Source: Psychromonas sp. L1A2
GTDB lineage: Bacteria > Pseudomonadota > Gammaproteobacteria > Enterobacterales > Psychromonadaceae
Assembly: GCF_009828855.1 (NCBI RefSeq)
Contig: NZ_WUAG01000001.1
Coordinates: forward strand, 434,001 to 498,000
Length of the DNA stretch: 64,000 nt
Reading direction: 5' to 3'
Numbering within the stretch: the first letter of the stretch is position 1; each line of letters starts with the position of its first letter. The notes beneath the pieces were generated by a model. It saw nothing but the letters and a program-made list of their open reading frames with translations, had not been told where the DNA came from and made no database searches. Made by a program: the position numbers and the translations under genes. This document shows, in pieces, positions 4,463 to 33,556 of this stretch.

Positions 4463-6130
4463 ATGGCATCAGTAGTAAACACAAATGTAATGTCGCTTAA
4501 TGCACAACGTCAATTAGGCAAAACACAAATGGCGTCTAACGAAGCAATGGAACGTCTATCTTCTGGTTTGCGTATTAACAGCGCAAAAGATGATGCAGCC
4601 GGCCTTGCGATTTCAACTAGTATGAATTCTCAAATCACAGGTTTGAACCAAGCAGTACGTAACTCAAATGATGGTATATCAATGGCGCAAACTGCCGAGG
4701 GTGCGATGGATGAAATGACCAATATCCTGCAACGTATGCGTGAACTATCGGTTCAATCTGCCAATGATACAAACTCTGCAGAAAACCGTAGTGCAATTCA
4801 AGAAGAAGTCGATCAATTAAGCAGTGAGCTTGACCGTATCGCAGATACAACAGAGTTTAATGGTAAAAAATTATTAGATGGCTCTATGGGATCAACTACC
4901 TTACAAATTGGTGCTAACGAAGGGCAAACATTAAGCTTTTCAATTGATTCTGTAACCACTAATGACCTAGGTTTGAACGGCGGTTTAAATAAAGAAGAAT
5001 TAAATGGTGGCCGAGTTAATGCTACGACTGCTGTTGTCGATAAAGCTCTTTCTTTAAATGGTACAGATATTGGGGCGGCTTCCGCTGCAGGTGCCCCTGC
5101 GTTAGTTGATGCTATCAATCTAAAAACAGATGAAACTGGTGTAACAGCCAGTGCATATAACGTAGTTCAAGGTGATCATGACGCCACAGGCGTAACTTCT
5201 GGTCTTCAAATTACTGTTGGAACTGGTGCTGCTGTTACTTTAGGTGCAACATCTTCAATGGGTAATCTTGTTGAAACTATCAATCGTGATGTAGAAGGTG
5301 TAACAGCTTCTCAAGGTGATGATGGTGAATTATTATTGACTAACGATACAGGTGAAACAATCACTATAGGTGGGGCTGTTACGAACTCTGGTTTAACTTT
5401 GGGCGCAAATGGTGGTTATGTTGCGCTAGACAGTGCAGATGATTCACCGATTAAAACTGGTGGTACAGCGCCTGCAAGTGCAGGGTTTTTAATATCTAAT
5501 GGTGCTGATTCAGTAACTGGTGGTGTTGCAACAATTACAGCTGGAATTACAGATGCAGATAAATTAGAGATTAATGGTGTATCTATAGCCGCTGCAGATA
5601 CGACGACTGATATAAAAATGCTTGAACATCTTAATTCATATTCAGATCAAACTGGAGTGACTGTAACAGGAAGTGCAGCAGCAGGATACCAATTTTCTGC
5701 TGAACCTGGAAGAGGCGTGGAAATAACATCAAATGCAGCAACTGAAACAGCAAGAACGGGGACTTCAGGAGCTTTAAAAAAACTAGGTATGGATAGTGAA
5801 ATGGGTGGTAAAGTTATCGATTCACTAGGCACAAACGTATCAACGATGGCTGGTGCTTCAAGTACGATCACTAAAGTTGATGATGCGTTAGCTCAAATCA
5901 GTGCGTCACGTGCAGGCTTAGGTGCGATACAAAACCGTTTAGATTCAACGATTTCTAACTTAGAGAATGTTTCTCAAAATCTATCTGCCTCTAACTCTCG
6001 TATTCAAGATGCCGATTTTGCTGCTGAAACCTCTAATATGAGTAAAGCACAAATCTTACAACAAGCGGGTACGTCAATCCTTTCACAAGCTAACTCATCT
6101 GCACAAAGTGTACTTTCACTACTTGGTTAA
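4463..6130 (+). CDS. fliC: Flagellin
   Basis: 555 residues. Conserved D0/D1 ends are complete: N-terminal MASVVNTNVMSLNAQRQLGK through about residue 140 (LSSGLRINSAKDDAAGLAIS, ELSVQSANDTN), and C-terminal from about residue 465 (SRAGLGAIQNRLDSTISNLE, SNMSKAQILQQAGTSILSQA). Between them is a Thr/Ser/Ala/Gly-rich variable D2/D3 region of some 320 residues, the surface where O-linked sugars are added. Ribosome-binding site AAGGAGCT lies 5 bp before the ATG, and a terminator follows. Only one full flagellin gene is seen here; related bacteria often carry several. The neighbouring pseudaminate island implies the protein is glycosylated. Confidence 0.97.
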   Translation: MASVVNTNVMSLNAQRQLGKTQMASNEAMERLSSGLRINSAKDDAAGLAISTSMNSQITGLNQAVRNSNDGISMAQTAEGAMDEMTNILQRMRELSVQSANDTNSAENRSAIQEEVDQLSSELDRIADTTEFNGKKLLDGSMGSTTLQIGANEGQTLSFSIDSVTTNDLGLNGGLNKEELNGGRVNATTAVVDKALSLNGTDIGAASAAGAPALVDAINLKTDETGVTASAYNVVQGDHDATGVTSGLQITVGTGAAVTLGATSSMGNLVETINRDVEGVTASQGDDGELLLTNDTGETITIGGAVTNSGLTLGANGGYVALDSADDSPIKTGGTAPASAGFLISNGADSVTGGVATITAGITDADKLEINGVSIAAADTTTDIKMLEHLNSYSDQTGVTVTGSAAAGYQFSAEPGRGVEITSNAATETARTGTSGALKKLGMDSEMGGKVIDSLGTNVSTMAGASSTITKVDDALAQISASRAGLGAIQNRLDSTISNLENVSQNLSASNSRIQDADFAAETSNMSKAQILQQAGTSILSQANSSAQSVLSLLG

Positions 6131-6160
6131 GCCACTAGGGTAAGCTAAGTAATTGATTTA

Positions 6161-6188
6161 AAGCCCCCTAGTGATAGGGGGCTTTTTT
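6161..6188 (+). terminator. Flagellin terminator
   Basis: AAGCCCCCTA (6161-6170) pairs with 6175-6184 around a GTGA loop, followed by TTTTTT. Confidence 0.93.
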
Positions 6189-6218
6189 GCTTAATAGAGA
6201 TACTGAAAGAGGTTGATT

Positions 6219-6653
6219 ATGTCAGAACTCAATATCACTAATCCTGTCATGGGAAATCAAACGGTAAACACCGAAAAACCAATAGACGCTACAATACAAT
6301 CAACAGCATCATCGACAAAAGAATCTGCTGCATCTTCCGTTTTAACAATAGGTAATGATGTAGATAAAATAGAAAAAGCGACTGCTGCTTCTGATCAGCG
6401 TGAAAATAATGAAGAAACCAAGGTGCTCACTGCAGATGAAATATCTGAAACAGTAGAAGAGATGAATAGTTTTTTACAGGAAATGAAGCGAAACTTATCT
6501 TTTTCGGTGGATGAGGATTTAGGTAAAAATGTTATTACGGTTAAAGACACTGAAAATGATGAAGTTATTCGCCAGATTCCATCAGAAGATTTAATGGTAT
6601 TACGTAAAAAAATGGATGATGTTGCCGGTATTTTATTTGATACTAAGGTTTGA
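6219..6653 (+). CDS. flaG: FlaG family flagellar protein
   Basis: About 144 residues. The first ~70 are a low-complexity Ser/Thr/Ala/Glu-rich tail. The C-terminal ~75 residues are the FlaG domain, with EEMNSFLQEMKRNLSFSVDE followed by NVITVKDTENDEVIRQIPSE and a final helix. In Vibrio and Pseudomonas, FlaG lies between flagellin and fliD and influences filament length; the mechanism is not settled. A TTG at 6213 is in frame, but the ATG at 6219 has AAGAGG six bases upstream and is preferred. It is probably transcribed by read-through from flagellin or from its own weak promoter. Confidence 0.9.
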   Translation: MSELNITNPVMGNQTVNTEKPIDATIQSTASSTKESAASSVLTIGNDVDKIEKATAASDQRENNEETKVLTADEISETVEEMNSFLQEMKRNLSFSVDEDLGKNVITVKDTENDEVIRQIPSEDLMVLRKKMDDVAGILFDTKV

Positions 6654-6983
6654 CTTTTAGCATTACGTTTTAGCTTTCATTTCTCTTAGTTATTTTATGC
6701 GATAGATTTTAGTTTTTACCTTGGTTTGATATTACAGCGCTATATTAAGTAGCTATATTAGTAGCTATATTAACCACTACATTAAGCGTTCATATTAATT
6801 CGTTAATGAGGTTACTGAACTAAGTTAAATTGACTTTACAGTTAGTAAGGTGGCTTGTTTTTTGCATTTCATATCAAGTTAATAACTTAACTGCTTTATA
6901 AGCATAAATAATAAAAAGTTAATAACATCAATAACGCACAAAGAAATAATACATTAGATTCAATGAATGATTAAGGAACAACA
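6654..6983. other. flaG-fliD intergenic region
   Basis: 330 bp with no plausible gene. It holds three short direct copies of CTATATTA spaced 12-13 bp apart (about 6739-6772) and the sigma-54 promoter described separately at 6851-6866. The leader from that promoter to fliD is AT-rich. Confidence 0.6.
6851..6866 (+). promoter_or_regulatory. Sigma-54 promoter of fliD
   Basis: TGGCTTGTTTTTTGCA matches the -24/-12 consensus TGGCACG-N4-TTGCA, with the invariant GG and GC exactly 10 bp apart. Start would lie about 105 bp before fliD. It fits control by FlrA or FlrC, both encoded in this window. Confidence 0.75.
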
Positions 6984-9044
6984 ATGACTTCAATTACATC
7001 AACAGGTTTAGGCTCTGGACTTGATATCAATAGTATTGTCACAGCCATTGTTGCCGCCGAGCAAGATCCCGCTGCCGCTTCTTTATTAGCGGATGCCACT
7101 GAAGCGACCGAAATGATTTCAGCTTTTGGTACTATTAACAGTGCGTTGTCTGATTTTCAAGATTCCTATTCAGACCTGTCTCGAGCGTCCACTTTTTCTG
7201 CTACTAGTTCAACGAGTAGTGATGAGTCTATTATAAGTGCAACACTCGGTATCGGTGCTGCAACGGGTAGCTGGAGTTTTGAGGTTGAACAACAAGCTCA
7301 AGCACAAAGTATTGTTTCCTCGTCTGCCAATTCTTATTCTGAAGCAACGTCTGAAATTGGCACTGGCACCATTAGTTTTAGCTACGGCACTTATGAAGAT
7401 GATGGTTCTTTCTCAATTAACCCTGATAAAGCGGTTGAAACCTTAACCATTGATCCCGCTAATAACTCGCTTGATAAAATGCGAGATGCGATTAACGAGG
7501 GGGATTATAGTGTGTCAGCTTCTATTATTAATGATGGTACTAATTACCGTTTAATATTAACCAATAAAGAAACCGGCGCAGAGAACGCTTTACAAATAAC
7601 CGTTGCTGATGATGATGGTGATAATGTAGATGCCTCAGGTCTTTCTTCGTTGACTTACTCTAGTAGTGTCAAGCATATGGACGAAACCACTGTCGCTCAA
7701 GATGCTAAAATCATGATGAATGGCATTGAAATTACTCGACCAACCAATGATATAGCAAACGTGATCGAAGGGGTGACCCTCAATGTTGGCGGTAAAACTG
7801 AAGTGGGAAGCACTGTTTCTTTAACTATTAGCCCAGATAACAGTACCGTTGAAGAGCAAATTAATGCATTTGTTGAAAACTATAATAGCACGATCGCACA
7901 AATGAATACCTTGAGCGCCTATGGTGCGGACTCAGAAAGCAATGGCATACTAAGTGGCGATTCAACGGTACGTAATATTAAAAATCAAATGCGTGGTATT
8001 TTAAATACTTCTATATCTCATCTTGATGGTGCAGTGCGTAGTTTTGCTGATATCGGCATGCTAACCAATCGAGATGGAACGTTATCAATCGATTCGGAAA
8101 CATTAAGTAATGTGATGGCTTCTGATATGGAAAGCCTTGCCGAATTCTTTACTGCGTCAGGTGGCGCATCAGATTCATTTATTGATTATGAAAGTAAAAG
8201 TAGCTTTACGATACCAGGCGCCTACGATATCGAGGTTACTAAATTAGCGACTCAAGGTGCATTAACGGGGTCATCTTCTTTTTCTGTGCCATTAACGATA
8301 GATTCAAGTAATGATACTTTTAAAATGCGTTTAGATGGCTTTTTATCTGATGATATTATATTAACGTCGAAAACGTATAACACCATTGAAGAGTTTACCA
8401 CTGAGCTTCAGTCTAAAATTAATTCAGATACTAATTTTGTAGAGAATGGGCTCAATGCGAGCATTCTTGAAAGTGCAGGTATGTTGTCAATGACCTCTAA
8501 TAGTTACGGCTCCTCTTCAACAGTTGCAATAACCGAAATTGAAGACGCTAGCTTTTTTGCTTCAGCATTAGGTTTATCCGTTGCTGGAGGCATTAATGGT
8601 GAGGATGTAGAAGGGTTAATTGATGGAAATGTTGCATTAGGTGATGGGCAGTCGCTGTTATCTGATATAGGGGATTCAAAAGGCCTGCAAGCCGTTATTA
8701 CTGGTGGCGGCTTAGGTGATAGAGGGACTGTCTCTTATTCTCAAGGAATAAGTTCATTATTAGACAATACGTTAGATGGCATTATTGACTCTAATGTTAG
8801 TGCAACCGATGGTGATATCAGTAATAGTGGGTCGACTATTGATAGTAAGTTAGATTCGTTATACAAAGAAATTACCTCATTGGAAGAGCAAGAGGTCACC
8901 TTAAATTATAGAATGGATAACTTAGAAGAACGTTTATATACGCAGTTTAATGCCATGGATATTGCGGTGTCTAACTTGAACTCGTTAATGGATTACTTAG
9001 ATTCTGCCTTAGACTCATTACCTGGCTATACAAATAATAACTAA
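6984..9044 (+). CDS. fliD: Flagellar filament cap protein FliD
   Basis: 686 residues, at the long end for FliD. The N-terminal domain begins MTSITSTGLGSGLDINSIVT, the usual GLGSG(L)DI..IV motif (about residues 6-20). The FliD_C domain follows from about residue 240 (TVAQDAKIMMNGIEITRPTN, SPDNSTVEEQINAFVENYN) and the C-terminus is a coiled coil (SLYKEITSLEEQEVTLNYRM). FliD forms the cap on which secreted flagellin folds. It is driven by the sigma-54 site upstream and converges with the flaI-fliS pair. Its last ~98 codons have a second, divergent copy at 10750-11060. Confidence 0.95.
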   Translation: MTSITSTGLGSGLDINSIVTAIVAAEQDPAAASLLADATEATEMISAFGTINSALSDFQDSYSDLSRASTFSATSSTSSDESIISATLGIGAATGSWSFEVEQQAQAQSIVSSSANSYSEATSEIGTGTISFSYGTYEDDGSFSINPDKAVETLTIDPANNSLDKMRDAINEGDYSVSASIINDGTNYRLILTNKETGAENALQITVADDDGDNVDASGLSSLTYSSSVKHMDETTVAQDAKIMMNGIEITRPTNDIANVIEGVTLNVGGKTEVGSTVSLTISPDNSTVEEQINAFVENYNSTIAQMNTLSAYGADSESNGILSGDSTVRNIKNQMRGILNTSISHLDGAVRSFADIGMLTNRDGTLSIDSETLSNVMASDMESLAEFFTASGGASDSFIDYESKSSFTIPGAYDIEVTKLATQGALTGSSSFSVPLTIDSSNDTFKMRLDGFLSDDIILTSKTYNTIEEFTTELQSKINSDTNFVENGLNASILESAGMLSMTSNSYGSSSTVAITEIEDASFFASALGLSVAGGINGEDVEGLIDGNVALGDGQSLLSDIGDSKGLQAVITGGGLGDRGTVSYSQGISSLLDNTLDGIIDSNVSATDGDISNSGSTIDSKLDSLYKEITSLEEQEVTLNYRMDNLEERLYTQFNAMDIAVSNLNSLMDYLDSALDSLPGYTNNN

Positions 9045-11356: not shown

Positions 11357-12760
11357 ATGGGCTCTCAAAAATCGATCAATAAGTTAAATAAAGCAAGTGC
11401 TGAAGCTAAAAAAGAGAATTATTTAAAGTCTATCTCTTTATGTAAATCAGTTATTAATAAAGAAAAAAATAGTTCTGCTGCTTATAAGTTGCTTGCCACT
11501 AATTTAATTAAGTTAAATCGATTTTCAGAAGTAGAAATTACATTAAAAAAAGTAATTAAAATAGTTAGCGAAGAGGAATCATACCCTCTGATACATTTAT
11601 TAGGTTGTAATTATCTCAGTCAGGGCAAGCATAATGAAGCCCTTACTTTACTAGAGTCTTTATTTAACAAAACGGGTGATAGTAAAATATTATTAGATAT
11701 TGCATTAGTGTATTTTAATTTAGGTGATTATGAGAATGCGCGAGATGTTTATTTAAAGTTAATCGAATTAGAGCCAAATAACCATCAAGCTAAATTTAAT
11801 TTATACCCCATCTTATTACACTTTCAAGACTTCAAAAATGCTTGGGTTTGTTTCCATAGTCGCCTCGAACGACAAGAGATAAAAGACCAAGTACATTGGT
11901 TTGCACCAAAGTGGAGCGGCGAATCATTAGTCGGCAAAAATATTCTTATTTATCCTGAGCAGGGGATTGGTGATAATCTTCATTACACTGCTTGTTTTGC
12001 TGAAGCGATTGCAGATGCAAAGCAAAGTCACATCGTCTGCGATAATCGCTTAAAAACGCTTTATCAGCATAACTTTCCGAGTGCCGTTATACACTCGTAC
12101 GATGATGTTAATCAGGCTCAAACGATTGGTGCAGAGCTTGATCTACAGATCCTCGTTGGCTCTTTGCCTTATTTATATCGTGATACTCCCGCTTCGTTTG
12201 CAAATCAGAGATCATTAACTATTGCAAAAGAGGTAATTGAGGAAACTGGACGCCAATTATCAAATAACAAATTACGCATCGGTATTTCATGGTTTCATGG
12301 GCGTATAAATGATGGAAATGCGCATTCCATGCCACTCGAAGTACTACTACCTATGCTAAAAATACCAGGTATTGAATGGGTAAATCTACAGTTTGGTGAG
12401 TGGCAGAAAGAAGTGAAAAATATTGAAGAAAAATACCATATCCCGATTACTCATCTTGAAACCTGTACTGCGGCAGGTGACTTTAATCAATATGGTTCGT
12501 TAATTGCCAATTTAGATTTAGTGATTTCTGCCAGTAATGCAGCATTGATGCTCGCCTCTCGTTTAGGGGTGAAAACGTGGATGTTTTTACCAGGTAAATC
12601 GAAAGGTATAAAGATGAATCGAAACCAAGATTCGTTAGCGATTAAAAATCAGCGGGTATTTTATAAAGAGTTAGCGAAATCATGGGAACAGGTAGTTGAA
12701 GATTTTTGTAGTGAACTGAAAGCGCTACCAGAAGTCTCAGCACAGAGTGAGTTATCATGA
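11357..12760 (+). CDS. TPR-containing glycosyltransferase (GT9-like C-terminal domain)
   Basis: 467 residues. Tetratricopeptide repeats occupy roughly residues 1-160 (NYLKSISLCKSVINKEK, DYENARDVYLKLIELEPNNH). The C-terminal ~280 residues resemble the GT-B fold of heptosyltransferase-like GT9 enzymes: LIYPEQGIGDNLHYTACF, then IGISWFHGR, and a late nucleotide-binding region DLVISASNAALMLASRLGVK. Such TPR-GT proteins are found in flagellin glycosylation islands. It is the first gene of the operon, overlaps pseF by 4 bp, and no Maf-type transferase is present. It is therefore my leading candidate for the enzyme that attaches the nonulosonate to flagellin. That role is inference. Confidence 0.75.
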   Translation: MGSQKSINKLNKASAEAKKENYLKSISLCKSVINKEKNSSAAYKLLATNLIKLNRFSEVEITLKKVIKIVSEEESYPLIHLLGCNYLSQGKHNEALTLLESLFNKTGDSKILLDIALVYFNLGDYENARDVYLKLIELEPNNHQAKFNLYPILLHFQDFKNAWVCFHSRLERQEIKDQVHWFAPKWSGESLVGKNILIYPEQGIGDNLHYTACFAEAIADAKQSHIVCDNRLKTLYQHNFPSAVIHSYDDVNQAQTIGAELDLQILVGSLPYLYRDTPASFANQRSLTIAKEVIEETGRQLSNNKLRIGISWFHGRINDGNAHSMPLEVLLPMLKIPGIEWVNLQFGEWQKEVKNIEEKYHIPITHLETCTAAGDFNQYGSLIANLDLVISASNAALMLASRLGVKTWMFLPGKSKGIKMNRNQDSLAIKNQRVFYKELAKSWEQVVEDFCSELKALPEVSAQSELS

Positions 12761-13518
12761 GCAATATTGCCATTATTCCAGCTCGCGGTGGTAGTAAGCG
12801 GATTTCGAACAAAAATATAAAGTTATTTTGTGGCAAGCCCATTATTGCTTATAGCATTGAAGCTGCGTTGCAATCTGGCGTTTTTGATGCTGTTTTAGTG
12901 TCAACAGATAGTGAGGCGATTGCAAATATTGCAAAGCAATATGGCGCTGAAGTTCCTTTTATCCGACCAGATTATTTAGCGGACGATCATACGGGTACAA
13001 CCGATGTGATTGAACATGCTATTACAGAGTGGCAAAATCTCGGTAATAAAATCAACCTCGCTTGCTGCATTTATGCAACTGCACCCTTTTTACAAAAAAA
13101 ATACATTGTAGATGCAATTAATCGCTTAAAAGCACATGCAACTAAACGTTCAGCATTTACTGTGTGTAAATTTAATTATCCTATTCAACGTTCATTTACG
13201 ATTGAATCATCAGACAGTAACGTGACTCCCGTCGATGCATCATCACTTCCTAAACGCTCCCAAGATCTACCGGATGTCTACCATGATGCAGGACAATTTT
13301 ATATTGCCAAAGCAGATGATTTTTTGAATCAATCCTTTAACATTTTCTCTGAAACCTCTATTCCTATTATTCTGCCACATTATTTAGTGCAAGATATTGA
13401 CGATCAAGATGATTGGCGAAGAGCTGAATATATGTATCAGGCATTTATCGCTGACAATGAAAAACTGAATGCTGACGTTATGTGTAAGGACTTAAAAAAT
13501 GTTAGAAAAATCAAATAA
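12757..13518 (+). CDS. pseF: Pseudaminic acid cytidylyltransferase
   Basis: 253 residues of the CMP-sugar transferase family. The nucleotide-binding signature IPARGGSKRISNKNIKLF is at residues 6-23 and a second motif, AVLVSTDSEAIANIA, follows. PseF activates pseudaminic acid with CTP to CMP-Pse, the donor for glycosyltransferases. The start overlaps the upstream gene as ATGAG, and the end overlaps pseI by 20 bp, so the genes are translationally coupled. Adjacent pseI, pseG and pseH make PseF much more likely than the sialic acid enzyme NeuA. Confidence 0.93.
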   Translation: MSNIAIIPARGGSKRISNKNIKLFCGKPIIAYSIEAALQSGVFDAVLVSTDSEAIANIAKQYGAEVPFIRPDYLADDHTGTTDVIEHAITEWQNLGNKINLACCIYATAPFLQKKYIVDAINRLKAHATKRSAFTVCKFNYPIQRSFTIESSDSNVTPVDASSLPKRSQDLPDVYHDAGQFYIAKADDFLNQSFNIFSETSIPIILPHYLVQDIDDQDDWRRAEYMYQAFIADNEKLNADVMCKDLKNVRKIK

Positions 13519-14572
13519 TGAAGTGCATATTCAAAATAGAAAAATCGGGTTAGATCAGCCTCCTTTTGTGATTGCAGAATTATCTGGAAACCATAATCAA
13601 TCTTTAGAACTCGCCTTTAAAATGATAGAAGCCGCCGCTGAATCAGGTGCTGACGCAATTAAGTTACAAACTTATACTGCCGATACAATGACCTTAGATT
13701 GTGAGTTAGATGATTTTCAAATAGCAGATGATGACAATATATGGAAAGGTAACTCGCTTTATAAATTATATGAAAAAGCCCATACCCCATGGGAATGGCA
13801 TCAAGCACTATTTGAAAAAGCGAACGAATTAGGTCTCATTGCATTTAGTTCGCCTTTTGATATTAGCGCGGTGGATTTTTTAGAAACATTAAACGTGCCT
13901 TGTTATAAAATTGCTTCTTTTGAAAATAATGATATTCCGCTTATTAAACGTATCGCTCAGACGGGAAAACCAGTCATTATTTCGACAGGTATGGCTTCTC
14001 TAACAGAAATCTCTGAAGCTGTTGATACACTGCGTGAAAATGGCTGTTCACAAATTATTTTATTAAAGTGCACCAGTGCTTATCCCGCCTCAGCTGCGCA
14101 AGCCAATTTGAAAACTATTCAGCATTTACGCGATACTTTCAAATGTGAAGTGGGTATTTCAGACCATACATTAGGTATAGGTGTTGCTTTGGCGGGCGTT
14201 GCCCTAGGTGCTTCAGTGATTGAAAAACATTTTGTTTTATCACGTGATGCTGGTGGCGTCGATGCCGCATTTTCATTGCAACCTGACGAGTTAACATTAT
14301 TAGTGACTGAAAGTCGTTCAGCCGCTTTAGCGGGTGGAAATATTGTGTACGGTGGAGGTGCTAGCGAGCAAGCATCTAAAAAATATCGTCGCTCAATCTA
14401 TATTTCACAGGATTTAAAAGCTGGCGATATTTTATCTGTTGATAATATCAAAATTGTCCGCCCCGGTTTAGGTTTAGCGCCTAAATATTATGAGATGGCA
14501 CTCGGTCAGAAATTAGTTAAAGATGTACCATTAGGGACTGCATTAAGCTGGGAATTACTTAAAAGTGACTAG
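13499..14572 (+). CDS. pseI: Pseudaminic acid synthase
   Basis: 357 residues. An N-terminal NeuB/PseI TIM barrel (PFVIAELSGNHNQSLELA, DAIKLQTYTADTMTLD, ISDHTLGIGVALAGVALGAS, IEKHFVLSRDAGGVDAAFSL) occupies about residues 20-280. The C-terminal SAF/antifreeze-like domain (RRSIYISQDLKAGDILSVDN) fills the last 60. It condenses 2,4-diacetamido-2,4,6-trideoxy-L-altrose with phosphoenolpyruvate to pseudaminic acid. Motif details (GNHNQ, SRDAGGVD) favour PseI over NeuB. It overlaps both neighbours. Confidence 0.94.
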   Translation: MLEKSNNEVHIQNRKIGLDQPPFVIAELSGNHNQSLELAFKMIEAAAESGADAIKLQTYTADTMTLDCELDDFQIADDDNIWKGNSLYKLYEKAHTPWEWHQALFEKANELGLIAFSSPFDISAVDFLETLNVPCYKIASFENNDIPLIKRIAQTGKPVIISTGMASLTEISEAVDTLRENGCSQIILLKCTSAYPASAAQANLKTIQHLRDTFKCEVGISDHTLGIGVALAGVALGASVIEKHFVLSRDAGGVDAAFSLQPDELTLLVTESRSAALAGGNIVYGGGASEQASKKYRRSIYISQDLKAGDILSVDNIKIVRPGLGLAPKYYEMALGQKLVKDVPLGTALSWELLKSD

Positions 14573-15635
14573 CTTTATAACTACTACTCAGTCAAATACC
14601 AAGGTAAGCCTCTTATTTAGATTTGATGCCTCTGGCCAAATAGGAATAGGCCATGCATTCAGATGTATGGCGCTTATCGAAGTGTTGAGTTTACAGGACA
14701 ATATTACTTGTTTTGTTATTGCACGATCATTGCCTGACTTTATTATTAAAAAATTAGAAGCTTTAAAAGCAAAGTTGTTGATGTTAGATAATGATGTCGA
14801 ATTAACATTTGAAATAGACTCTATAAAAAAATTCGCTTCACAACATCAAGTGACAGCGATTGTTTTAGATGGTTATCAATTTGATGTTCAATATAGACAA
14901 GCGCTTTATGCTTCAAATCTACATGTCATTGCCTTTGATGACTCGAATGAGTTAGAAAATCTATATTGTGACTTAGTGATCAACGCGTTACCTTTTGCTT
15001 CTTCGATTGGTTATGAGAAAAGTGCGCCTCAGGCAACTCATTTATTAGGGCTGGAATACAGCATTATCCGCCAAGAATTCTTACAACAAGAAGTCATTAC
15101 TTTTAAAAAACGAAACAAACTATTAGTTAACTTTGGTGGCAGTGATGTTGCTAATTTAACATTTTCACTGGTCACTAAACTGTTGGATCTGGAGCTAATC
15201 GATAGTCCTGAGGATATTATCGTGATCACGGGAGGCGCTTATTCTTCCCCTGAAAAAATGAATTTATTAGCGTTGAAATTTGGCTTCCAACACATTCATA
15301 ACTGCCAAAATATGGCTGAAATACTACCTCAATGTAAATTGGCTATTTGTGCTCCCGGTTCGATTGTTTATGAATTAGCTTTTTGCGGTGTGCCGAGCAT
15401 CTTTTTAACTGTGGCAGATAATCAATTGTTATCCGCACAAGCCCATCAAAATATTGGCTGGTGTAAAGTTGAGAATGGATTAGAAAATCAGGGGATTGAG
15501 CATGCTTTATTGCATCTTTCTCAATTATGGAGTGCGCCATCAGAATTAATGAAGTTGTTGGAGATCGCGATCAACCTGATTGATGGGAAAGGTGTTAAAC
15601 GGATCTGCTCTGCGATCAAGGACTTACTGATATGA
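14565..15635 (+). CDS. pseG: UDP-2,4-diacetamido-2,4,6-trideoxy-beta-L-altropyranose hydrolase
   Basis: 356 residues, GT-B-like fold related to MurG. The N-terminal LFRFDASGQIGIGHAFRCMA contains the conserved G-x-GH-x-x-R nucleotide loop with the catalytic His. A central VNFGGSDVANLT and a late CAPGSIVYELAFCGVPS form the UDP-binding half. PseG removes UDP from the altrose intermediate before PseI acts. Start is GTG, overlapping pseI by 8 bp. The C-terminal end overlaps pseH by ATGA. Assignment is strong from motif and context. Confidence 0.92.
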   Translation: MTSFITTTQSNTKVSLLFRFDASGQIGIGHAFRCMALIEVLSLQDNITCFVIARSLPDFIIKKLEALKAKLLMLDNDVELTFEIDSIKKFASQHQVTAIVLDGYQFDVQYRQALYASNLHVIAFDDSNELENLYCDLVINALPFASSIGYEKSAPQATHLLGLEYSIIRQEFLQQEVITFKKRNKLLVNFGGSDVANLTFSLVTKLLDLELIDSPEDIIVITGGAYSSPEKMNLLALKFGFQHIHNCQNMAEILPQCKLAICAPGSIVYELAFCGVPSIFLTVADNQLLSAQAHQNIGWCKVENGLENQGIEHALLHLSQLWSAPSELMKLLEIAINLIDGKGVKRICSAIKDLLI

Positions 15636-16207
15636 AGTTACAAGGCTATGGCATCGAATTATCTGAAGTAACAGAAGATAAAATTGAAAAAATACGTCTC
15701 TGGCGTAATCACCCTGACATCGCGAGTGTAATGTTAGATAAAACGGAGATAACGCCTACTCAGCAACTGGCTTGGTTTGACTCGTTAGCCTGTAAAAACG
15801 ATCGCTTATATTTATTGATCAGCTACAAGGGTGAGGATATCGGCATGATCTCCGCTTTGTCTGTAACCCCAAATAATGTTAGCACTGACTCAAAACCACA
15901 AAATTTACCTCTGTCACAGGCAGAAAAAATTGCACCAGGTCTGTATATTGAACCAAATAGTAAATATAAAAATAGTGTCTTAGCATTTAGCCCATCCCTT
16001 GTTTTTATTGAATACTTATTTAAACAAGGTTGTTGTACAGAGTTAGAGGCACAGGTGTTTGAGCATAATGAAAGTGCTATTCGTTACAATAAAATGCTTG
16101 GATATAAGGAGGGTGTTGTGGATGACCAAGGCCTATTAACCATGACGCTTAATATTATCGACTTTGAAAGTGCAAAAGATAAATTAAGTAAAATATTACG
16201 ATTTTAA
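15632..16207 (+). CDS. pseH: UDP-4-amino-4,6-dideoxy-N-acetyl-beta-L-altrosamine N-acetyltransferase
   Basis: 191 residues, GNAT fold. The start VTEDKIEKIRLWRNHPDIAS, with its LWRNHP motif, is typical of PseH, and the acetyl-CoA-binding part is around YIEPNSKYKNSVLAFSPSLV and LEAQVFEHNESAIRYNKMLG. PseH acetylates the 4-amino group made by PseC. Pse pathway neighbours support the call. There is a somewhat long insertion (about residues 85-110) that could change acyl-donor choice. That point is of interest because an acyl carrier protein gene follows directly. Confidence 0.88.
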   Translation: MKLQGYGIELSEVTEDKIEKIRLWRNHPDIASVMLDKTEITPTQQLAWFDSLACKNDRLYLLISYKGEDIGMISALSVTPNNVSTDSKPQNLPLSQAEKIAPGLYIEPNSKYKNSVLAFSPSLVFIEYLFKQGCCTELEAQVFEHNESAIRYNKMLGYKEGVVDDQGLLTMTLNIIDFESAKDKLSKILRF

Positions 16208-16242: not shown

Positions 16243-16488
16243 ATGACAGATACAAACAGATTGGTGAACGTTTTTGTAACCGCGTTAGAAATACCTGAAA
16301 GTGAAGTCAATGACGATTTGAAATATGACCAACATAAACGTTGGGATTCGATGGCTCATATGATTCTAATTGCACAATTAGAAGGTGAGTTTGATGTGAT
16401 GTTTGATATTGATGACATCATTGATATGAGTTCATTTGTGCAAGCTAAACTTATTTTGAAAAAATATAACGCTGATTTGTCGTTATAA
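16243..16488 (+). CDS. Acyl carrier protein
   Basis: 81 residues. The 4'-phosphopantetheine attachment motif is WDSMAHM with Ser36; the usual helix II follows (LIAQLEGEFDVMFDIDDIID). The acidic composition fits a carrier protein. It differs from housekeeping AcpP, where the motif is DSLD, so it is a specialised carrier. It starts the acyl block inside the glycosylation operon and is likely to hold a substrate for the SDR reductase, AMP ligase and LuxE/LuxC-like proteins that follow. The phosphopantetheinyl transferase would be supplied from elsewhere. Confidence 0.9.
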   Translation: MTDTNRLVNVFVTALEIPESEVNDDLKYDQHKRWDSMAHMILIAQLEGEFDVMFDIDDIIDMSSFVQAKLILKKYNADLSL

Positions 16489-16506
16489 ATCGATAGGAAA
16501 TGTTGA

Positions 16507-17235
16507 ATGATTGTTCTGGTAACGGGTGCTTATGGCGGTATAGGGCGTAGTGTATGTATTGCATATTTAAAGCAAGCAACGACGTTAATTATTTCAGGTC
16601 GAGATCCAATTAAGCTTGATGCCTTGTTATTGGAGCTACAACATATCTCCGATATTAATATTATCGCGATAGTGGCTGACGTGACCGATGAAGTACAAAT
16701 ATCTGCCATGTTTAAACAGATTGCAACGCAGAAAAAAAGATTAGATGTACTCGTTCATTGTGCAGGCATTTTAACGCAAAAAACTCTTATGTTAACCAGA
16801 CTCAGTGAGATGCAGCAGGATCTCAATACTAACTTGCTCAGCAGTATTTTATTTTGTCAGCAAGCCAGTAAATTAATGCTTCGTAACAAGTCTGGCGTGA
16901 TCACCTTAATAAGTTCAATTATTGCTTCGCAAGGTAGTGCGGGGCAAAGTGTCTATGGAGCTTCTAAAGCAGGCATTGAGGGCTTAGTTAAATCCCTCGC
17001 TAAAGAGTTAGGCTCTATTGGCATTCGTATTAACGCATTAGCACCGGGTTTTATTAATTCCGAATTAGTGGCCAATTATGACGAGCAAGAAAAACAATTA
17101 TTAGCAGAAAAAACCTGTTTAAAAAGGATCGGTGAAGTGGAAGATATCGCTCCGGTTGTTACTTTCTTATCATCAAATGGCGCACGTTATATTACAGGGC
17201 AAGTGATCGCTGTAGATGGAGGATTAGCTTTGTGA
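16507..17235 (+). CDS. SDR-family oxidoreductase (FabG-like, probable 3-oxoacyl-ACP reductase)
   Basis: 242 residues. The NAD(P)-binding TGAYGGIG is at residues 6-13, NNAG is replaced by HCAG (about 84-87), the catalytic Ser is near 136, and the Tyr-x-x-x-Lys pair is Y150/K154 in YGASK. The C-terminus IRINALAPGFINSELV and ITGQVIAVDGGLAL is classic FabG style. It sits 18 bp after the carrier protein gene and overlaps the next gene by four bases (GTGA). Reduction of a carrier-bound 3-oxoacyl group is the most likely job, but a sugar or keto-acid substrate cannot be excluded. Confidence 0.85.
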   Translation: MIVLVTGAYGGIGRSVCIAYLKQATTLIISGRDPIKLDALLLELQHISDINIIAIVADVTDEVQISAMFKQIATQKKRLDVLVHCAGILTQKTLMLTRLSEMQQDLNTNLLSSILFCQQASKLMLRNKSGVITLISSIIASQGSAGQSVYGASKAGIEGLVKSLAKELGSIGIRINALAPGFINSELVANYDEQEKQLLAEKTCLKRIGEVEDIAPVVTFLSSNGARYITGQVIAVDGGLAL

Positions 17236-18686
17236 GTTTAGTGGAACAAGGAGAATTAACTTTTTGGAATACTAGCCGATTAGCAAAGTGTTATGGTAAT
17301 CATATCGCTTTCATTGAAAACGAAGTAGAAAATGTCCGAACAGTTAGTTATCAAGAATTAGAGCACTTAGTCATCGAAGCTAAACAAAAACTGTCTAGTT
17401 ACCACAGCGAATTAAATAACAAACTATTGATCATGCTGGTGGCGAATAATTCTATTGAAAGTGTGGTTTATTATCTTGCTGCTTTACAACTCGGGCAGTC
17501 CATTTGGTGGGTAGAAAAAGACAGTGAAAAAGAACGATTACACTCGTTACAAACACACTACGGTGTTAATTTACTAATTAATAATGGGAAAATTCAAGTA
17601 TTAGATTCAACACCTGTTGCACTACATGATGATTTAGCGTTATTAATCACGACCTCTGGTAGTACAGGTAGCCCAACACTGGTTAAACTAAGTTATCAGA
17701 ATATTCATAGTAACTGTGTTGCTATCGGCAAAGCGCTCACATTAACCGCTTCTGATATGACGGTCACCACTTTACCTTTGCAATATAGTTTTGGGCTTTC
17801 TATTCTCAACACTCACTTAAATGCGGGCAGTACAATAATATTGACTGACGCTTCTTTAATGAGTCGTGATTTTTGGTCTCTATTCAAAGCCTATCCAATC
17901 AAATGTTTATATGGTGTGCCTTACACTTTTGAGATGTTATTAAAGCTATCGTTGCCTCGCTTACCGTTTAAGTCGTTACGTTTTATGGCGGTTGCAGGGG
18001 GGAAGTTGAGTGCAGATAAAGTGACCTTGGTGAATGATTATTGCCTGAGTAAAAACTGTGAATTTTACGTGATGTATGGGCAAACAGAAGCCAGTGCCAG
18101 AATGACCGTATTAGCGCCTGAAAAAGCGAAAATAAAACCGATGTCGATCGGACAACCCATCGCAGGTAAATTATGGTTGGAAGATGGACAAGGCAATGTC
18201 ATTGAACAGACTGATAGTAAAGGAGAGCTGTGCTATCAAGGTGATAATGTCATGATGGGTATAGCACAAGAAAAAGCAGACTTATTATTACCGGCGCACA
18301 CTTCAGTATTAAAAACCGGTGATGTAGGCATTGTTGATAAGGAAGGTGATTATCAAATTGTTGGGCGTTTAAAACGCATGATTAAAGTGCTAGGGCATCG
18401 TATTAATTTAGATGAAATAGAACGATTTTTTAGTGATAAAAGTCAGTCGGTTATTTGTACGGGCGAAGACGATATGATTTTTTGTTATCTTATCAATAGC
18501 TTGCAAAACAAACTGCAACTGAGTAAGTGCCAACAGTCATTAAACAATCACCTTTCCGTGCATTCAAATTATAGCCAGTGGACAGTGATTGAAGAGATCC
18601 CTTATCTCAGTTCAGGCAAGATAAATTATCCCCGACTTAAGCAATTACGGTTTGAGAGTGATGCTTCCCAAAAGGAGCAAAAATGA
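17232..18686 (+). CDS. AMP-dependent acyl ligase (ANL superfamily)
   Basis: 484 residues with GTG start. The P-loop-like adenylation motif is LLITTSGSTGSPTLVKLSYQ (about residues 136-155), MYGQTEASARM is the A5 motif, and KTGDVGIVDKEGDYQIVGR with MIKVLGHRINLDEIE gives A7-A8. The final A10 Lys is seen in LSSGKINYPRLKQL. It forms acyl-adenylates and transfers the acyl group to CoA or a carrier protein; the adjacent acyl carrier protein makes that the likely acceptor. It is shorter than long-chain acyl-CoA synthetases, closer to acyl-ACP ligases. It overlaps both neighbours. Confidence 0.85.
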   Translation: MSLVEQGELTFWNTSRLAKCYGNHIAFIENEVENVRTVSYQELEHLVIEAKQKLSSYHSELNNKLLIMLVANNSIESVVYYLAALQLGQSIWWVEKDSEKERLHSLQTHYGVNLLINNGKIQVLDSTPVALHDDLALLITTSGSTGSPTLVKLSYQNIHSNCVAIGKALTLTASDMTVTTLPLQYSFGLSILNTHLNAGSTIILTDASLMSRDFWSLFKAYPIKCLYGVPYTFEMLLKLSLPRLPFKSLRFMAVAGGKLSADKVTLVNDYCLSKNCEFYVMYGQTEASARMTVLAPEKAKIKPMSIGQPIAGKLWLEDGQGNVIEQTDSKGELCYQGDNVMMGIAQEKADLLLPAHTSVLKTGDVGIVDKEGDYQIVGRLKRMIKVLGHRINLDEIERFFSDKSQSVICTGEDDMIFCYLINSLQNKLQLSKCQQSLNNHLSVHSNYSQWTVIEEIPYLSSGKINYPRLKQLRFESDASQKEQK

Positions 18687-19744
18687 ATTGGGAACAATTA
18701 ATGACGCTACCTGCTTATGATTTAAATTCGCAAGACAAAGCCAATGTATTTACGCCTGCATTAATGGCGCTATCACAACATCATTATACTCACAGCGAAG
18801 ATTACCGTTTAATTATTGATTCATTATATAAAGAGGTTTTTGAGCAAGGTGAAGTTCCTGCTTTAAACGTAGGATTATTTAAGCACCATCTCCTTAAAAG
18901 CATTCCGATTGAGAATATATTTAGGATCACTACCTCCTCAGGCACTACGTCACAGCAAGTTTCCCAAATCGTATTAGACAAAGAGAATACATTACGTCAG
19001 CAAAAAATATTAGCGACCATCCTTAAGCATTGGTTGGGTAGCAAACGCCTACCAATGTTGATCATCGATCATCCTAATGTAATTAAAGATAAATTCTCCT
19101 ATTCTGCTCGTGGCGTTGGTATACAAGGTATGTCGTTGTTTGGTCATGATCATACTTATGCACTTAATGAAGACATGACCATTAATATTGGCGCTGTCAG
19201 TCAATTTTTTGACAAGTATAAAGATCAAAAGGTATTTATCTTTGGTTTTACCTTTGTAGTCTGGCAATACTTTATTAAACAACTTGCTTTGCAGCAAACT
19301 AGTTTCCAAGTCAATGAAGCTGTTTTATTACATAGTGGAGGATGGAAAAAGCTACTCGATCAAGCTGTGTCCAATGATGCTTTTAAACAGCAAGTTCAAA
19401 CAACGCTAGGTTCAGTTCAAGTACATAATTTTTATGGCATGGTAGAGCAAACTGGCACTATTTATGTTGAATGTGAGTCGGGGTACTTACATTGCCCTGT
19501 TTGGAGTGATGTCACTATTCTCAATAAAAAAACGCTCAAGCCGGAAATACATGGGATTGAAGGTATTATTCAAGTGAGCTCATTATTACCCACTAGTTAT
19601 CCAGGGCACCGTTTATTAACGGAAGATCTCGGCGTGATGCTAGGAGAGGATGACTGTACTTGTGGTCGTCATGGTAAATATTTTTTAGTCAACGGCCGCT
19701 TAGCCAAAGCGGAAGTAAGGGGCTGTAGTGATACTCAATCTTAA
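18683..19744 (+). CDS. LuxE-like acyl-protein synthetase
   Basis: 353 residues, close to LuxE length (about 370). The adenylate-forming motif ITTSSGTTSQQ lies near residue 81, a central YGMVEQTGTIYVECESGYLH resembles the family's YG-E/Q-T motif, and the Cys-rich end EDDCTCGRHGKYFLVNGRLA with a late Cys in VRGCSD is where LuxE carries its acyl-enzyme Cys. LuxE activates a fatty acid and passes it to LuxC. No luxA, luxB or luxD is present, so this is not bioluminescence. It overlaps the ligase gene by ATGA and the LuxC-like gene by 17 bp. Confidence 0.83.
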   Translation: MNWEQLMTLPAYDLNSQDKANVFTPALMALSQHHYTHSEDYRLIIDSLYKEVFEQGEVPALNVGLFKHHLLKSIPIENIFRITTSSGTTSQQVSQIVLDKENTLRQQKILATILKHWLGSKRLPMLIIDHPNVIKDKFSYSARGVGIQGMSLFGHDHTYALNEDMTINIGAVSQFFDKYKDQKVFIFGFTFVVWQYFIKQLALQQTSFQVNEAVLLHSGGWKKLLDQAVSNDAFKQQVQTTLGSVQVHNFYGMVEQTGTIYVECESGYLHCPVWSDVTILNKKTLKPEIHGIEGIIQVSSLLPTSYPGHRLLTEDLGVMLGEDDCTCGRHGKYFLVNGRLAKAEVRGCSDTQS

Positions 19745-20909
19745 AGAATTTGAAATTAACGTTTTATTTCCGAATAATCACTCCTATCAAATTGATTCGT
19801 CTATAACGAGATCTCCATTTTCTGAGCCATTAATGTCACAACTCATTCAATTGGGCGAGTTTTTAATGACGAATGGACGTGCTGAGCCGAGTATTGTTGC
19901 CGCAGGTTATTGGTTACGTAAAAGCCATTTGCTAAGTATTAAAGCGGAGTATCCAATCTCACAATTAAAAGCAAAAGGGGCTGTGTTTCATATTGCGCCC
20001 GGCAATGTGGATACCTTGTTTTTTTATTCCATGATCATCTCTGTCTTATGCGGTAATCAAACTATTTTAAGAGTAAGTAATAATGTCAGTGCGGAAGCGC
20101 AAACGTTGTTAGATCTCTTGAATCAATTTAATGCTCAATTAGAAACAGAGCATGTCATTGCCTCACTATTAACTGTTATTCAATATCAACGTGATGACAT
20201 TATTACTGCCAAAATATCCAGTGCTTGTGATAGCCGAGTGATATGGGGCGGAAACGAAAGTATCGATCATATTTGTCAGTTTCCTCTCGTAAACGGGAAT
20301 TCTGACAATATTTGTTTTCCTGATAGATATTCCGTTGCTGTTATACAACTTAAAGATGAAGTGGAGATTAATAGCGCAGTAGATAATTTATTACGCGATA
20401 TAAAACCCTATCACCAACAAGCGTGCTCATCGCCTAAAGTGGTTTATTGGTTAAATACGGCACATAGCTTGCAAGATAAGTTTTGGTTGTTATTAGATCA
20501 ACGATTAAGCCAACAAAAGAGCTTAGAAGCAACAGAACTGATTGCGCAGTTATTGTATATACAACGACTACCATTGTTACTTAGTGCAGATAAAGTTGAT
20601 AAAAATAAATGTTTATTAAAAAAATATGATCTATTGCAGGTGTTGGAGATTGAATCCATCAGCCTTAATAGCATAAAGTCACATAGTGGTCTTTGGGTGT
20701 TATTAAGCTTACAAATTAATAGTTTAGGTGATATTGAATTGTTTGAACATTGCCAAACAATGACCGTGTCAGGATTTGATAAATCACAATGTAAGCATTG
20801 GCAAAGTACGACGTTACAACCACTGAAACGGATAGTCCCAGCGGGGCAGGCATTGGCATTTTCCCATCTATGGGATGGTGTCAATTTGATTGAAAATTTA
20901 ACATCATAA
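19728..20909 (+). CDS. LuxC-like acyl-CoA/acyl-protein reductase
   Basis: 393 residues, aldehyde-dehydrogenase-related LuxC family; shorter than lux-operon LuxC (about 480). HIAPGNVDTLFFYSMIISVL (about residues 88-107) and LCGNQTILRVSN form the nucleotide-binding half. The expected catalytic Cys is in HQQACSSPKVVYW, at about residue 233. It reduces an activated acyl group to an aldehyde with NADPH. GTG start within the LuxE-like gene. With that gene it forms the minimal fatty-acid reductase pair, here inside a sugar cluster, which suggests an aldehyde intermediate in glycan decoration (inference). Confidence 0.83.
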   Translation: MILNLKEFEINVLFPNNHSYQIDSSITRSPFSEPLMSQLIQLGEFLMTNGRAEPSIVAAGYWLRKSHLLSIKAEYPISQLKAKGAVFHIAPGNVDTLFFYSMIISVLCGNQTILRVSNNVSAEAQTLLDLLNQFNAQLETEHVIASLLTVIQYQRDDIITAKISSACDSRVIWGGNESIDHICQFPLVNGNSDNICFPDRYSVAVIQLKDEVEINSAVDNLLRDIKPYHQQACSSPKVVYWLNTAHSLQDKFWLLLDQRLSQQKSLEATELIAQLLYIQRLPLLLSADKVDKNKCLLKKYDLLQVLEIESISLNSIKSHSGLWVLLSLQINSLGDIELFEHCQTMTVSGFDKSQCKHWQSTTLQPLKRIVPAGQALAFSHLWDGVNLIENLTS

Positions 20910-20924
20910 CATTCAGGAGAACCT

Positions 20925-21735
20925 ATGTTTTACGAGTTAGCATCGCCAACATTTGGAGATGAAGAACATGCAGCTTTAAACAAAGTGATAGAAAGTGGCT
21001 TTTTTTCTATGGGAAAATACGTCGCTGAATTCGAAAAACAATTTGCTGAATATCATGATAAAAAATATGCAGTAATGGTGAACTCTGGTTCATCACAAAT
21101 TTAATTGCGACCGCTACGCTGTGTTACAAAAAAGATAGCCCATAAAACTTGGAGATGAAGTCATTGTGCCTGCTATTTCTTGGGTGAATACTTACCATCC
21201 ACTACAGCAAAATGACTTAAAGTTAAAATTTGTAGATGTGCAGTTAAACAACTTAAATATCGATATTAACCAATTAGAGAAAGCATTAACTAAAGTTACC
21301 AAAATGATTGTAGGCGTCAGTATTCTAGGTAACCCTACTGCGTTAGATGTGTTGCGAAGATTTGCAGATAAATATAGTTATATTTTTTAGAAGATAATTG
21401 TGAATCACTTGATGCTGAGTTAAACAATCAAAAAACTGGTACATTCGGCGATATTGGTACCTTTAGCTTTTTCTTTTGGCATCATATTTCGACAATGGAA
21501 GAGGGAGTGTTGCTCACTGACGATGATGAACTTTGTCAGCTTGCTTTGTCACTTCGTAATCATGGCTGGACGTGAGGTCAACCTGATGACTCCTGCATAT
21601 TCGAAAGGAAACAAGATGATTTTAATGAAGCTTATCGCTTTATATCAACAGGTTATAATGTCAGGCCGACTGAACTATGCGGCGGTAATGACCATTCCTA
21701 CCGCGACCGATAAATCAGAATTTATTAGTGTTTGA
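20925..21735 (+). pseudogene. Broken DegT/ColD-like aminotransferase gene
   Basis: A clear start (AGGAGA before ATG; MFYELASPTFGDEEHAALNK, VIESGFFSMGKYVAEFEKQF) is followed by a TAA after MVNSGSSQ. Fragments in other frames continue the family: PAISWVNTYHPLQQNDLKLK, EDNCESLDAELNNQKTGTFG, then TFSFFWHHISTMEEGVLLTD, a TGA within SLRNHGWT-GQP, and STGYNVRPTELCGG. The HHIST motif, with His where most family members have Lys, recalls ColD/RfbH-type dehydratases. At least two frameshifts and two stops make it dead. It was the last gene of the plus operon. Confidence 0.88.
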
Positions 21736-29845: not shown

Positions 29846-32028
<2,183 letters not shown>

Positions 32029-33413: not shown

Positions 33414-33556
33414 TACTATTATATGCTCTACCACTAAAGTTTTAGTTAGAGAAAATGTGTCATTTTATAGTCATTGTCATCTTTTTGACTAATTTTCAAT
33501 GCAAACCGTAAAAAATGTTCTATTATAACCGTAGTTTATTTTTATGAGTATTGATT

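Follow-up and report, generated by a model that had tools for sequence, protein, structure and literature searches.

A LuxE/LuxC-containing gene block beside a variant PseH: a candidate tailoring cassette for pseudaminic acid in Psychromonas

Introduction

What do relatives of the luminescence proteins LuxE and LuxC do inside a pseudaminate operon? In the 64,000-nucleotide stretch of the Psychromonas sp. L1A2 genome that was analyzed (hereafter, the window), five intact ORFs at 16243-20909 lie immediately 3' of pseH, and code for an acyl carrier protein (ACP), an SDR, an AMP-forming acid ligase, and LuxE-like and LuxC-like proteins. A preliminary description of this DNA read them as a non-luminous acyl pathway linked to the flagellar nonulosonate, and stated that no characterised enzyme set of this exact kind was known. 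The latter statement has to be amended. The order pseH-orf1-orf2-orf3-luxE-luxC is already published for Aeromonas AH-3, the five genes are present in the Group II flagellin glycosylation islands of 98 Aeromonas strains (PMC7874193), and comparable genes occur in islands of Enterobacteriaceae (PMC4875605). The block is uncharacterised in both papers, where the roles offered are a vague "liposugar" and "fatty acid synthesis"; the papers that we read describe neither enzyme assays nor mutants for it, which counts against the explanation favored here. According to this explanation, to which we assign a probability of about 0.5, the block serves as a tailoring cassette: its enzymes prepare a short polar acyl group (dihydroxybutyryl) on the ACP, and a PseH variant adds this group to a pseudaminic acid precursor. 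New relative to the literature are the PseH subfamily, the kinship of LuxE to a tetronate-type fusion, and the fit to a mass of 376.148.

Results

The pse genes of the window form two separate sets. On the forward strand, pseF (CMP-pseudaminate synthase, 12757..13518; TIGR03584, 308.5 bits, cut-off 205.7), pseI (pseudaminic acid synthase, 13499..14572; TIGR03586, 492.4 bits, cut-off 340.25) and pseG (UDP-sugar hydrolase, 14565..15635; TIGR03590, 181.5 bits, cut-off 153.55) are followed by the gene for a GNAT-fold PseH variant (15632..16207), the proposed acyltransferase of the block. The block itself consists of a dedicated ACP with a WDSM motif (16243..16488; PF00550 (PP-binding), 22.4 bits, cut-off 20.8), a FabG-like SDR, the proposed semialdehyde reductase (16507..17235; PF13561 (adh_short_C2), 178 bits), an AMP-forming acid ligase, the proposed ACP loader (17232..18686; PF00501 (AMP-binding), 142.7 bits), a LuxE-like acyl-protein synthetase (18683..19744; PF04443, 153.4 bits), and a LuxC-like acyl reductase (19728..20909; PF05893, 100.9 bits), the last four also scoring above their cut-offs. 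The gaps from PseH onward are 35, 18, -4, -4 and -17 bases, in agreement with the earlier description of five overlapping or tightly spaced genes right after pseH. The G+C content of the block (37.6%, versus 36.5% for the window) is no outlier. The second set, on the reverse strand, includes pseC (29846..31003; TIGR03588, 560 bits, cut-off 423.5) and pseB (31000..32001; TIGR03589, 563.3 bits, cut-off 407.75).

This layout resembles that of the Aeromonas Group II islands in the five shared genes, which in AH-3 have the identical order directly 3' of pseH, in the two separate pse sets, and in the flagellar context. Unlike the window, these islands have a GT2 gene (fgi-1) after luxC, plus Maf. 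In the window, the GT2 gene is absent from this position, which is occupied by the remnant of a DegT/PseC-like aminotransferase gene in three forward-strand pieces (20958..21677; matches to TIGR03588), two of them with in-frame stops; there are no PF01973 matches genome-wide and hence no Maf-type glycosyltransferase beside pseI. The forward-strand gene 5' of pseF (11357..12760) encodes a protein for which Pfam reports TPR only; judging by PMC7591256, we guess that it is possibly an FlmG-like flagellin glycosyltransferase. An anti-phage defence role was dropped, given that the five block proteins have no PADLOC matches.

Conservation of catalytic residues was counted over scored, near-full-length, non-identical rows of the family alignments, with near-identical or odd-length rows removed. 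W34-D35-S36 of the ACP is kept in 98/98 rows, Cys348 of LuxE, the putative acyl-accepting residue, in 110/110, Lys463 of the AMP ligase in 106/106, Ser137/Tyr150/Lys154 of the SDR in 99% of 98 rows, and Cys233 of LuxC in 99% of 109. The latter belongs to a QQAC motif that aligns with QQAC of luminescence LuxC (7xc6). The carrier Ser36 and the LuxC catalytic cysteine that had been singled out previously are thus borne out.

Two partially overlapping samples of loci, with at least five contigs apparently common to both, were used to assess the spread of the block. The order sample comprised 51 genomes with PF05893, of which 49 contexts were examined, the exceptions being G143 (short contig) and the genome of the window itself; the named scan comprised 80 loci found via LuxE alone, where all DegT-like proteins are labelled PseC and all NeuB-like ones PseI, and the PseB training set held one wrong short row (184 aa). 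Some ORFs of the locus contexts were chosen by length, and their strand may be wrong. Beside LuxE in the named scan, there is an AMP ligase in 79/80 loci, LuxC in 76/80 and an ACP in 72/80. PseH lies directly 5' of the block in 28/36 order-sample and 25/76 named-scan loci with AMP ligase, LuxE and LuxC (core loci). This adjacency exceeds chance and is consistent with the suggested link to the flagellar nonulosonate. Five PseH-linked core loci from four genomes (L061, L069 = L142, L078, L083) have no SDR, which speaks against the favored explanation. Wide occurrence without sugar genes had been named as an argument against a sugar pathway, and on this point the picture is mixed. The ACP-ligase-LuxE-LuxC core is spread over many phyla and is common outside pse loci. 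Some of these non-pse loci lie beside transketolase, ThDP/NeuB-like or DegT genes (the transketolase and ThDP identities are Pfam-confirmed in L172 and L159 only, and assigned by similarity to these two elsewhere), and 30 of the 76 named core loci match none of the three scored contexts.

Luminescence is ruled out, as previously proposed, because the genome has no luciferase pair: a genome-wide search for luxAB yielded a single, distant luciferase-superfamily match (PF00296, at C1:1602047), and a luciferase gene adjoins none of the core loci (0/36 in the order sample and 0/76 in the named scan). Compared to the LuxCDE fatty acid reductase (7xc6), the block keeps the positions of the LuxE acyl-Cys and the LuxC catalytic Cys, but is distant in sequence, has neither a luciferase pair nor LuxD, and includes the ACP, the ligase and the SDR in addition.

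Judged by sequence, the nearer relative of the block LuxE is a tetronate-type fusion of LuxE and LuxC, and not the LuxE of luminescence. The block LuxE scores 174 bits against the fusion and at most 68 bits against lux LuxE, and in a LuxE tree, five fusions group with block LuxE, apart from five lux LuxE (96*), although this tree was built by a quick method, its lux branches are long, and its root position is uncertain. The tetronate-type loci compared were L055, L056 and L216-L218, the V. cholerae O1 genes being known from papers. L055 consists of an ACP, a 473-aa ligase, an Fe-ADH and an 825-aa LuxE-LuxC fusion, and L056 has ORFs of equal sizes; like the block, this pathway brings together ACP, AMP ligase, LuxE and LuxC functions, but LuxE and LuxC are fused in L055, and an Fe-ADH replaces the SDR. 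Other comparisons count against the favored explanation. The block LuxC is only marginally nearer to the fusion (66.6 bits) than to lux LuxC (at most 50.1), the fusion's own LuxC scores higher against lux LuxC than against block LuxC, and the block AMP ligase matches the tetronate-type ligase at 80.9 bits and 23%, which is ordinary kinship (in a separate search, 56.9 bits were reached by an unrelated ligase from this genome).

In the available excerpts of the literature, the tetronate genes of V. cholerae O1 are VC0248-VC0252 (rfbKLMNO / wbe), with WbeL of 471 aa (PMC3441752); RfbL reportedly activates 2,4-dihydroxybutanoic acid, the putative acceptor being CoA or the carrier RfbK (PMC12208996), and RfbN contains a LuxE domain (PMC4772473). 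As far as these excerpts go, the N-acyl group of a surface sugar depends on a carrier, an acid ligase and a protein with a LuxE domain, as proposed for the block, the sugar being perosamine and not pseudaminate (PMC3441752). The sfmABCDE genes of Shewanella oneidensis, which according to the portion of PMC3765264 consulted include NeuB and a 3-oxoacyl-ACP-type reductase, are not a match: the five genes described there do not include LuxE, LuxC or an AMP ligase.

The "liposugar" put forward in PMC7874193 and PMC4875605, i.e., a fatty acid or aldehyde that ends up in a lipid moiety of the glycan on the flagellum, would agree with the long-chain specificity of luminescence LuxE/LuxC (per NCBIfam names). 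We consider it very unlikely in view of the distance between block LuxE and lux LuxE and of an AH-3 pseudaminic acid derivative just 60 Da heavier than diacetyl Pse; as weak evidence on the substrate, the top-scoring solved relatives of the AMP ligase are oxalate-CoA ligases, with short-acid ligases ranking first.

The preliminary description overlooked a change in PseH itself. The window PseH has a GNAT fold and lies inside a pse operon, yet it scores below the curated TIGR03585 cut-off (64 versus 93.1 bits) and is remodelled in the GNAT pyrophosphate loop. Block-adjacent PseH sequences (58, or 54 after removal of identical ones) were gathered with window-derived models, by which an ordinary PseH beside a block may be missed. 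An earlier block-free set had been picked by score over the TIGR03585 cut-off, a choice that favors ordinary PseH; the conclusions rest on a set picked by PseI context, namely, the 77 genomes lacking the block whose PseI match reached E <=1e-140 (those with weaker PseI were left out); their 77 pse loci yielded 60 PseH-like proteins, with none in 17 loci. One clade of the PseH tree (support 100/99) contains 53/54 block-adjacent PseH and 0/60 block-free proteins; L167 (Clostridiaceae), scored as block-adjacent, sits outside. At the level of sequence, the PseH adjoining the block is a separate subfamily. In one genus (g35), taken to be Aeromonas from its gene order and from a Maf-type gene plus GT2 in one member, L081, the PseH type differs between block-bearing and block-free members. 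The strict pattern of glycine motif A is present in 2/54 block-adjacent PseH (both via flanking residues) versus 48/60 block-free proteins, the 12 exceptions among the latter including 8 with G-x-A. Against TIGR03585, block-adjacent L070 scores 99.1, above the cut-off, and L024, L061 and L124 score 84.9, 76.5 and 80.0. Ordinary-type PseH occurs in two block-bearing genomes, between ligase and LuxC in G347 (L116), and on another contig than the block in G143 (L104).

The predicted model of the window PseH (pLDDT 94.4) resembles PseH 4ri1 (Z 19.9) and FdhC 5ktc (Z 19.6), and ties with other GNATs including acetyl-CoA enzymes, e.g., SpeG 8fv1 (Z 19.5), which counts against the favored explanation. 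FdhC is a GNAT-fold enzyme that handles a hydroxyacyl group of nucleotide-linked amino sugars, and its structure was determined with a 3-hydroxybutanoylamino sugar; unlike the donor proposed here, this structure contains coenzyme A. We know of no link between FdhC and LuxE/LuxC. The PseH variant is likely to be the acyltransferase of the block, and it probably transfers a short polar acyl donor.

The AH-3 flagellin carries a Pse derivative of 376.14, which stays in place upon fgi-1 deletion, and a terminal 102 Da moiety, which is lost in this mutant (PMC7874193). The calculated mass of Pse5Ac with dihydroxybutyryl is 376.1482. Several other combinations are isobaric with 376.148 and count against a unique assignment: acetyl + O-methylglyceryl, formyl + di-O-methylglyceryl, glycolyl + hydroxybutyryl, and two lactyl groups. 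Also unfavorable is a figure legend in the paper on AH-1, whose sugar is 403 Da, that mentions a "376 Da sugar" with no explanation.

These masses bear on the 3-keto reduction previously ascribed to the SDR, which would yield a 3-hydroxyacyl-ACP (e.g., 3-hydroxybutyryl) for PseH, with LuxE/LuxC acting elsewhere. The SDR is FabG-like (TIGR01830, 214.3 bits, under the cut-off of 297.75), and the sugar bound to FdhC would suit such an acyl group. Nevertheless, we prefer aldehyde reduction because the block has no ketosynthase and because Pse with 3-hydroxybutyryl has a calculated mass of 360.153, not the 376.14 of AH-3. The 3-keto route, which we regard as unlikely, also leaves LuxE/LuxC unaccounted for, despite the presence of LuxC and the AMP ligase beside LuxE in nearly all named-scan loci.

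Equally improbable, in our view, is that the aldehyde made by LuxC is itself the product, being transaminated by an adjoining DegT protein or attached to the glycan beyond pseudaminic acid, e.g., as the AH-3 end group. The DegT-like gene 3' of LuxC in L124, L125 and L126, the remnant in the window, and the mass of C4H6O3 (102.03), nominally that of the 102 Da moiety, are compatible with this possibility. However, the window DegT gene is broken, the fgi-1 mutant loses the 102 Da moiety but keeps 376 Da, and neither the ACP nor the close association of the block with a single clade of PseH is accounted for.

Discussion

From the observed gene content and order, catalytic residues, and PseH subfamily with its linkage, we infer the substrates, the acyl-ACP donor and the product of a pathway for the tailoring cassette. 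LuxE would activate one carboxyl of a C4 diacid, for which malate is our best guess, as a thioester on Cys348; LuxC would accept the acyl group on Cys233 and reduce it to the semialdehyde; and the SDR would convert this aldehyde to an alcohol. The resulting acid would be a dihydroxybutyrate, namely the 2,4-isomer in the case of malate reduction at C4. The AMP ligase would then activate the other carboxyl and attach the dihydroxybutyrate to the ACP at Ser36. The presence of both LuxE and the AMP ligase as acid-activating enzymes would make sense for a diacid, either end of which has to be activated. Finally, the PseH variant would transfer the acyl group to the 4-amino group of the UDP-sugar, resulting in pseudaminic acid with dihydroxybutyryl in place of acetyl on N7, i.e., a predicted residue Pse5Ac7(dihydroxybutyryl) of 376.148 Da. 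That the acyl group is specifically dihydroxybutyryl has, in our estimate, slightly less than an even chance.

The proposal offers a testable identity for the 376 Da pseudaminic acid derivative of AH-3 and a function for the five-gene block of the Group II islands. It also points to a candidate subfamily of PseH acyltransferases that may use acyl-ACP, and to numerous LuxE/LuxC modules unconnected with light production, whose chemistry has yet to be described. More tentatively, ACP-AMP ligase-LuxE-LuxC might be a module of wide distribution, not tied to luminescence, in which one end of a small diacid becomes an aldehyde and the other is kept for a dedicated ACP. Its partners would vary: a reductase and an acyl-ACP-dependent PseH for N-acylation of pseudaminate, a split transketolase for two-carbon extension, or a ThDP enzyme and a NeuB-like synthase for new higher acids. 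If this doubtful generalization is true, the LuxE/LuxC pair would work mainly in glycan chemistry, and light production would be a specialised application of it.

The block and its island

The five genes that directly follow pseH (the block: an acyl carrier protein, ACP; an SDR reductase; an AMP ligase; and LuxE-like and LuxC-like proteins) are real, as the preliminary description had observed. At 16243-20909 the five open reading frames (ORFs) are intact and tightly spaced, their products exceed the Pfam cut-offs for PP-binding, SDR, AMP-binding, LuxE and LuxC, respectively, and the catalytic residues are kept across family alignments of 98-110 rows. Upstream are pseF, pseI and pseG, identified by family profile search, and pseH, which scores below the PseH cut-off; pseB and pseC lie on the opposite strand (29.8-32.0 kb). 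Flagellin, flaG and fliD-like ORFs, assigned by eye rather than by family search, are found upstream at 4463-9044, and a FleQ-type regulator at 33551-35002. The locus is a flagellar glycosylation island. Since PF01973 (Maf-type) has no match anywhere in the genome, the 467-aa TPR protein preceding pseF (11357-12760), of which Pfam recognises the TPR part only, may be an FlmG-like flagellin glycosyltransferase. Immediately after LuxC, a three-piece remnant of a DegT/PseC-like aminotransferase is present (20958-21677); the comparison loci L124, L125 and L126 have a DegT-like gene at the corresponding position.

It had also been stated that no characterised set of this kind was known. As a gene set, the block is not new: five ORFs were described downstream of pseH in Aeromonas piscicola AH-3, and Aeromonas Group II islands (98 strains) carry ACP, 3-oxoacyl-ACP reductase, AMP-dependent synthetase, luxE and luxC (PMC7874193), while for enterobacterial islands 73 strains with LuxE and 80 with LuxC were reported (PMC4875605). 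Both papers belong to the open-licence literature that joins PseH with pseudaminic acid (Pse) and an acyl carrier protein. The functional part of the statement stands in the literature covered, where a liposugar component is suggested for Aeromonas (PMC7874193) and likewise for the enterobacterial islands (PMC4875605).

Distribution

PF05893 was detected at E <= 1e-10 in 51 of 394 genomes of Enterobacterales, and the core genes (AMP ligase, LuxE and LuxC) were close together in 36 of the 49 contexts fetched. Among these 36 loci, 35 have ACP, 30 have SDR, 28 have PseH directly upstream and none has luciferase. The 13 contexts outside the core count include 3 with luciferase and 2 with AMP ligase and LuxE fused in a single ORF after PseH (L060, 877 aa; L066, 935 aa), among others. 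In Psychromonas the block is an accessory island, because 3 of the 24 genomes sampled have LuxC of the block kind.

Named genomes, some of them shared with the order sample, were also scanned with a LuxE profile; 80 of at least 569 loci were kept, with the core in 76 of these and the AMP ligase in 79. Among the matches listed, the 76 core loci include ACP in 71, SDR in 55, PseH upstream in 25, a split transketolase in 11 and a ThDP enzyme in 10; 30 have neither PseH upstream nor either of these two partners. Taxonomically, the loci range over Pseudomonadota, Bacillota, Spirochaetota, Bacteroidota, Melainabacteria and others.

The two-subunit transketolase adjoins ACP-ligase-LuxE-LuxC in several phyla (L149, L151, L154, L158, L163, L166, L172, L190 and others; identity Pfam-confirmed in L172, by similarity in the rest); in the open-licence literature searched, no paper mentions transketolase and acyl carrier protein together with LuxE and LuxC. 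A ThDP enzyme with a NeuB-like synthase adjoins the same genes in L144, L145, L156, L159, L176, L181, L189 and L195, with FabA-like and metallo-beta-lactamase-fold proteins additionally in L159. A 773-aa ORF of L062 matches both LuxE and LuxC; in L057 and L058, near which no pse genes are labelled, ORFs of 811 and 806 aa with a strong LuxC match follow a 380-aa LuxE-like ORF.

PseH next to the block

For a block-free comparison we used 77 pse loci picked by PseI, 60 of which have a PseH-like protein. In a tree of these 60 and 54 block-adjacent PseH, 53 of the 54 form one clade (support 100/99) containing none of the 60; only L167, encoded in a Clostridiaceae genome, lies outside it. The GNAT glycine motif binds the CoA pyrophosphate. 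Its strict pattern is found in 48 of 60 block-free PseH versus 2 of 54 block-adjacent ones, both of which match through flanking letters. Of the 12 block-free proteins failing it, 8 have G-x-A, and the motif loop of the block clade has two additional residues. We infer a switch of acyl donor in block-adjacent PseH, in the simplest case to the acyl-ACP of the block. However, G347 is a counter-example, a block-bearing genome with ordinary-type PseH, G143 possibly another, and the block PseH of L070 scores over the PseH cut-off. The predicted structure of the window PseH is a GNAT fold (pLDDT 94.4), which alone cannot identify the donor, because the top structural matches (2qml, PseH 4ri1, FdhC 5ktc, SpeG 8fv1) are all within 1 Z.

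Proposed pathway and predicted masses

We infer all substrates of the block enzymes as follows. LuxE and the AMP ligase are two acid activators, and both would be needed for a diacid, which has two ends: one end would be reduced by LuxC to an aldehyde, and the other loaded onto ACP. Reduction of malate at C4, for instance, would yield 2,4-dihydroxybutyrate. In pse loci, SDR would complete the reduction, and the acyl group would then be transferred by PseH; elsewhere, the aldehyde would pass to the transketolase or ThDP enzyme.

Vibrio cholerae O1 offers a parallel, with a ligase, a putative carrier and a LuxE-domain protein for sugar acylation; its sugar is perosamine, acylated with 3-deoxy-L-glycero-tetronate (VC0248-VC0252 are named as tetronate genes; PMC3441752). 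For RfbL, activation of 2,4-dihydroxybutanoic acid is described, with CoA or the carrier RfbK as the putative acceptor (PMC12208996), and RfbN is described with a LuxE domain (PMC4772473). The tetronate-type locus L055 encodes ACP, a 473-aa ligase, a 374-aa Fe-ADH and an 825-aa LuxE-LuxC fusion, with matching ORF sizes in L056; of the 227 genomes of that genus, 4 have a match at least 76% identical to the fusion, L055's own included. The window LuxE is closer to this fusion (33% identity, 174 bits) than to luminescence LuxE (24%, 68 bits at best). LuxC is less clear (66.6 bits versus 50.1 at best for luminescence LuxC), the LuxC part of the fusion itself scoring higher with luminescence LuxC, and the AMP ligases share generic kinship only.

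The calculated mass of the diacetyl Pse residue is 316.127; replacing one acetyl by 3-hydroxybutyryl gives 360.153, and by dihydroxybutyryl 376.148, a value with isobaric alternatives. Block-bearing AH-3 has a Pse derivative reported at 376.14, retained in the mutant of the GT2 gene fgi-1 (PMC7874193). Aeromonas AH-1 is described with a single Pse derivative of 403 Da, and a legend mentions 376, without explanation. Among the open-licence papers listed for dihydroxybutyryl or tetronyl, none mentions pseudaminic acid. The proposed pathway gives a specific prediction, decidable by one deletion and one mass spectrum.
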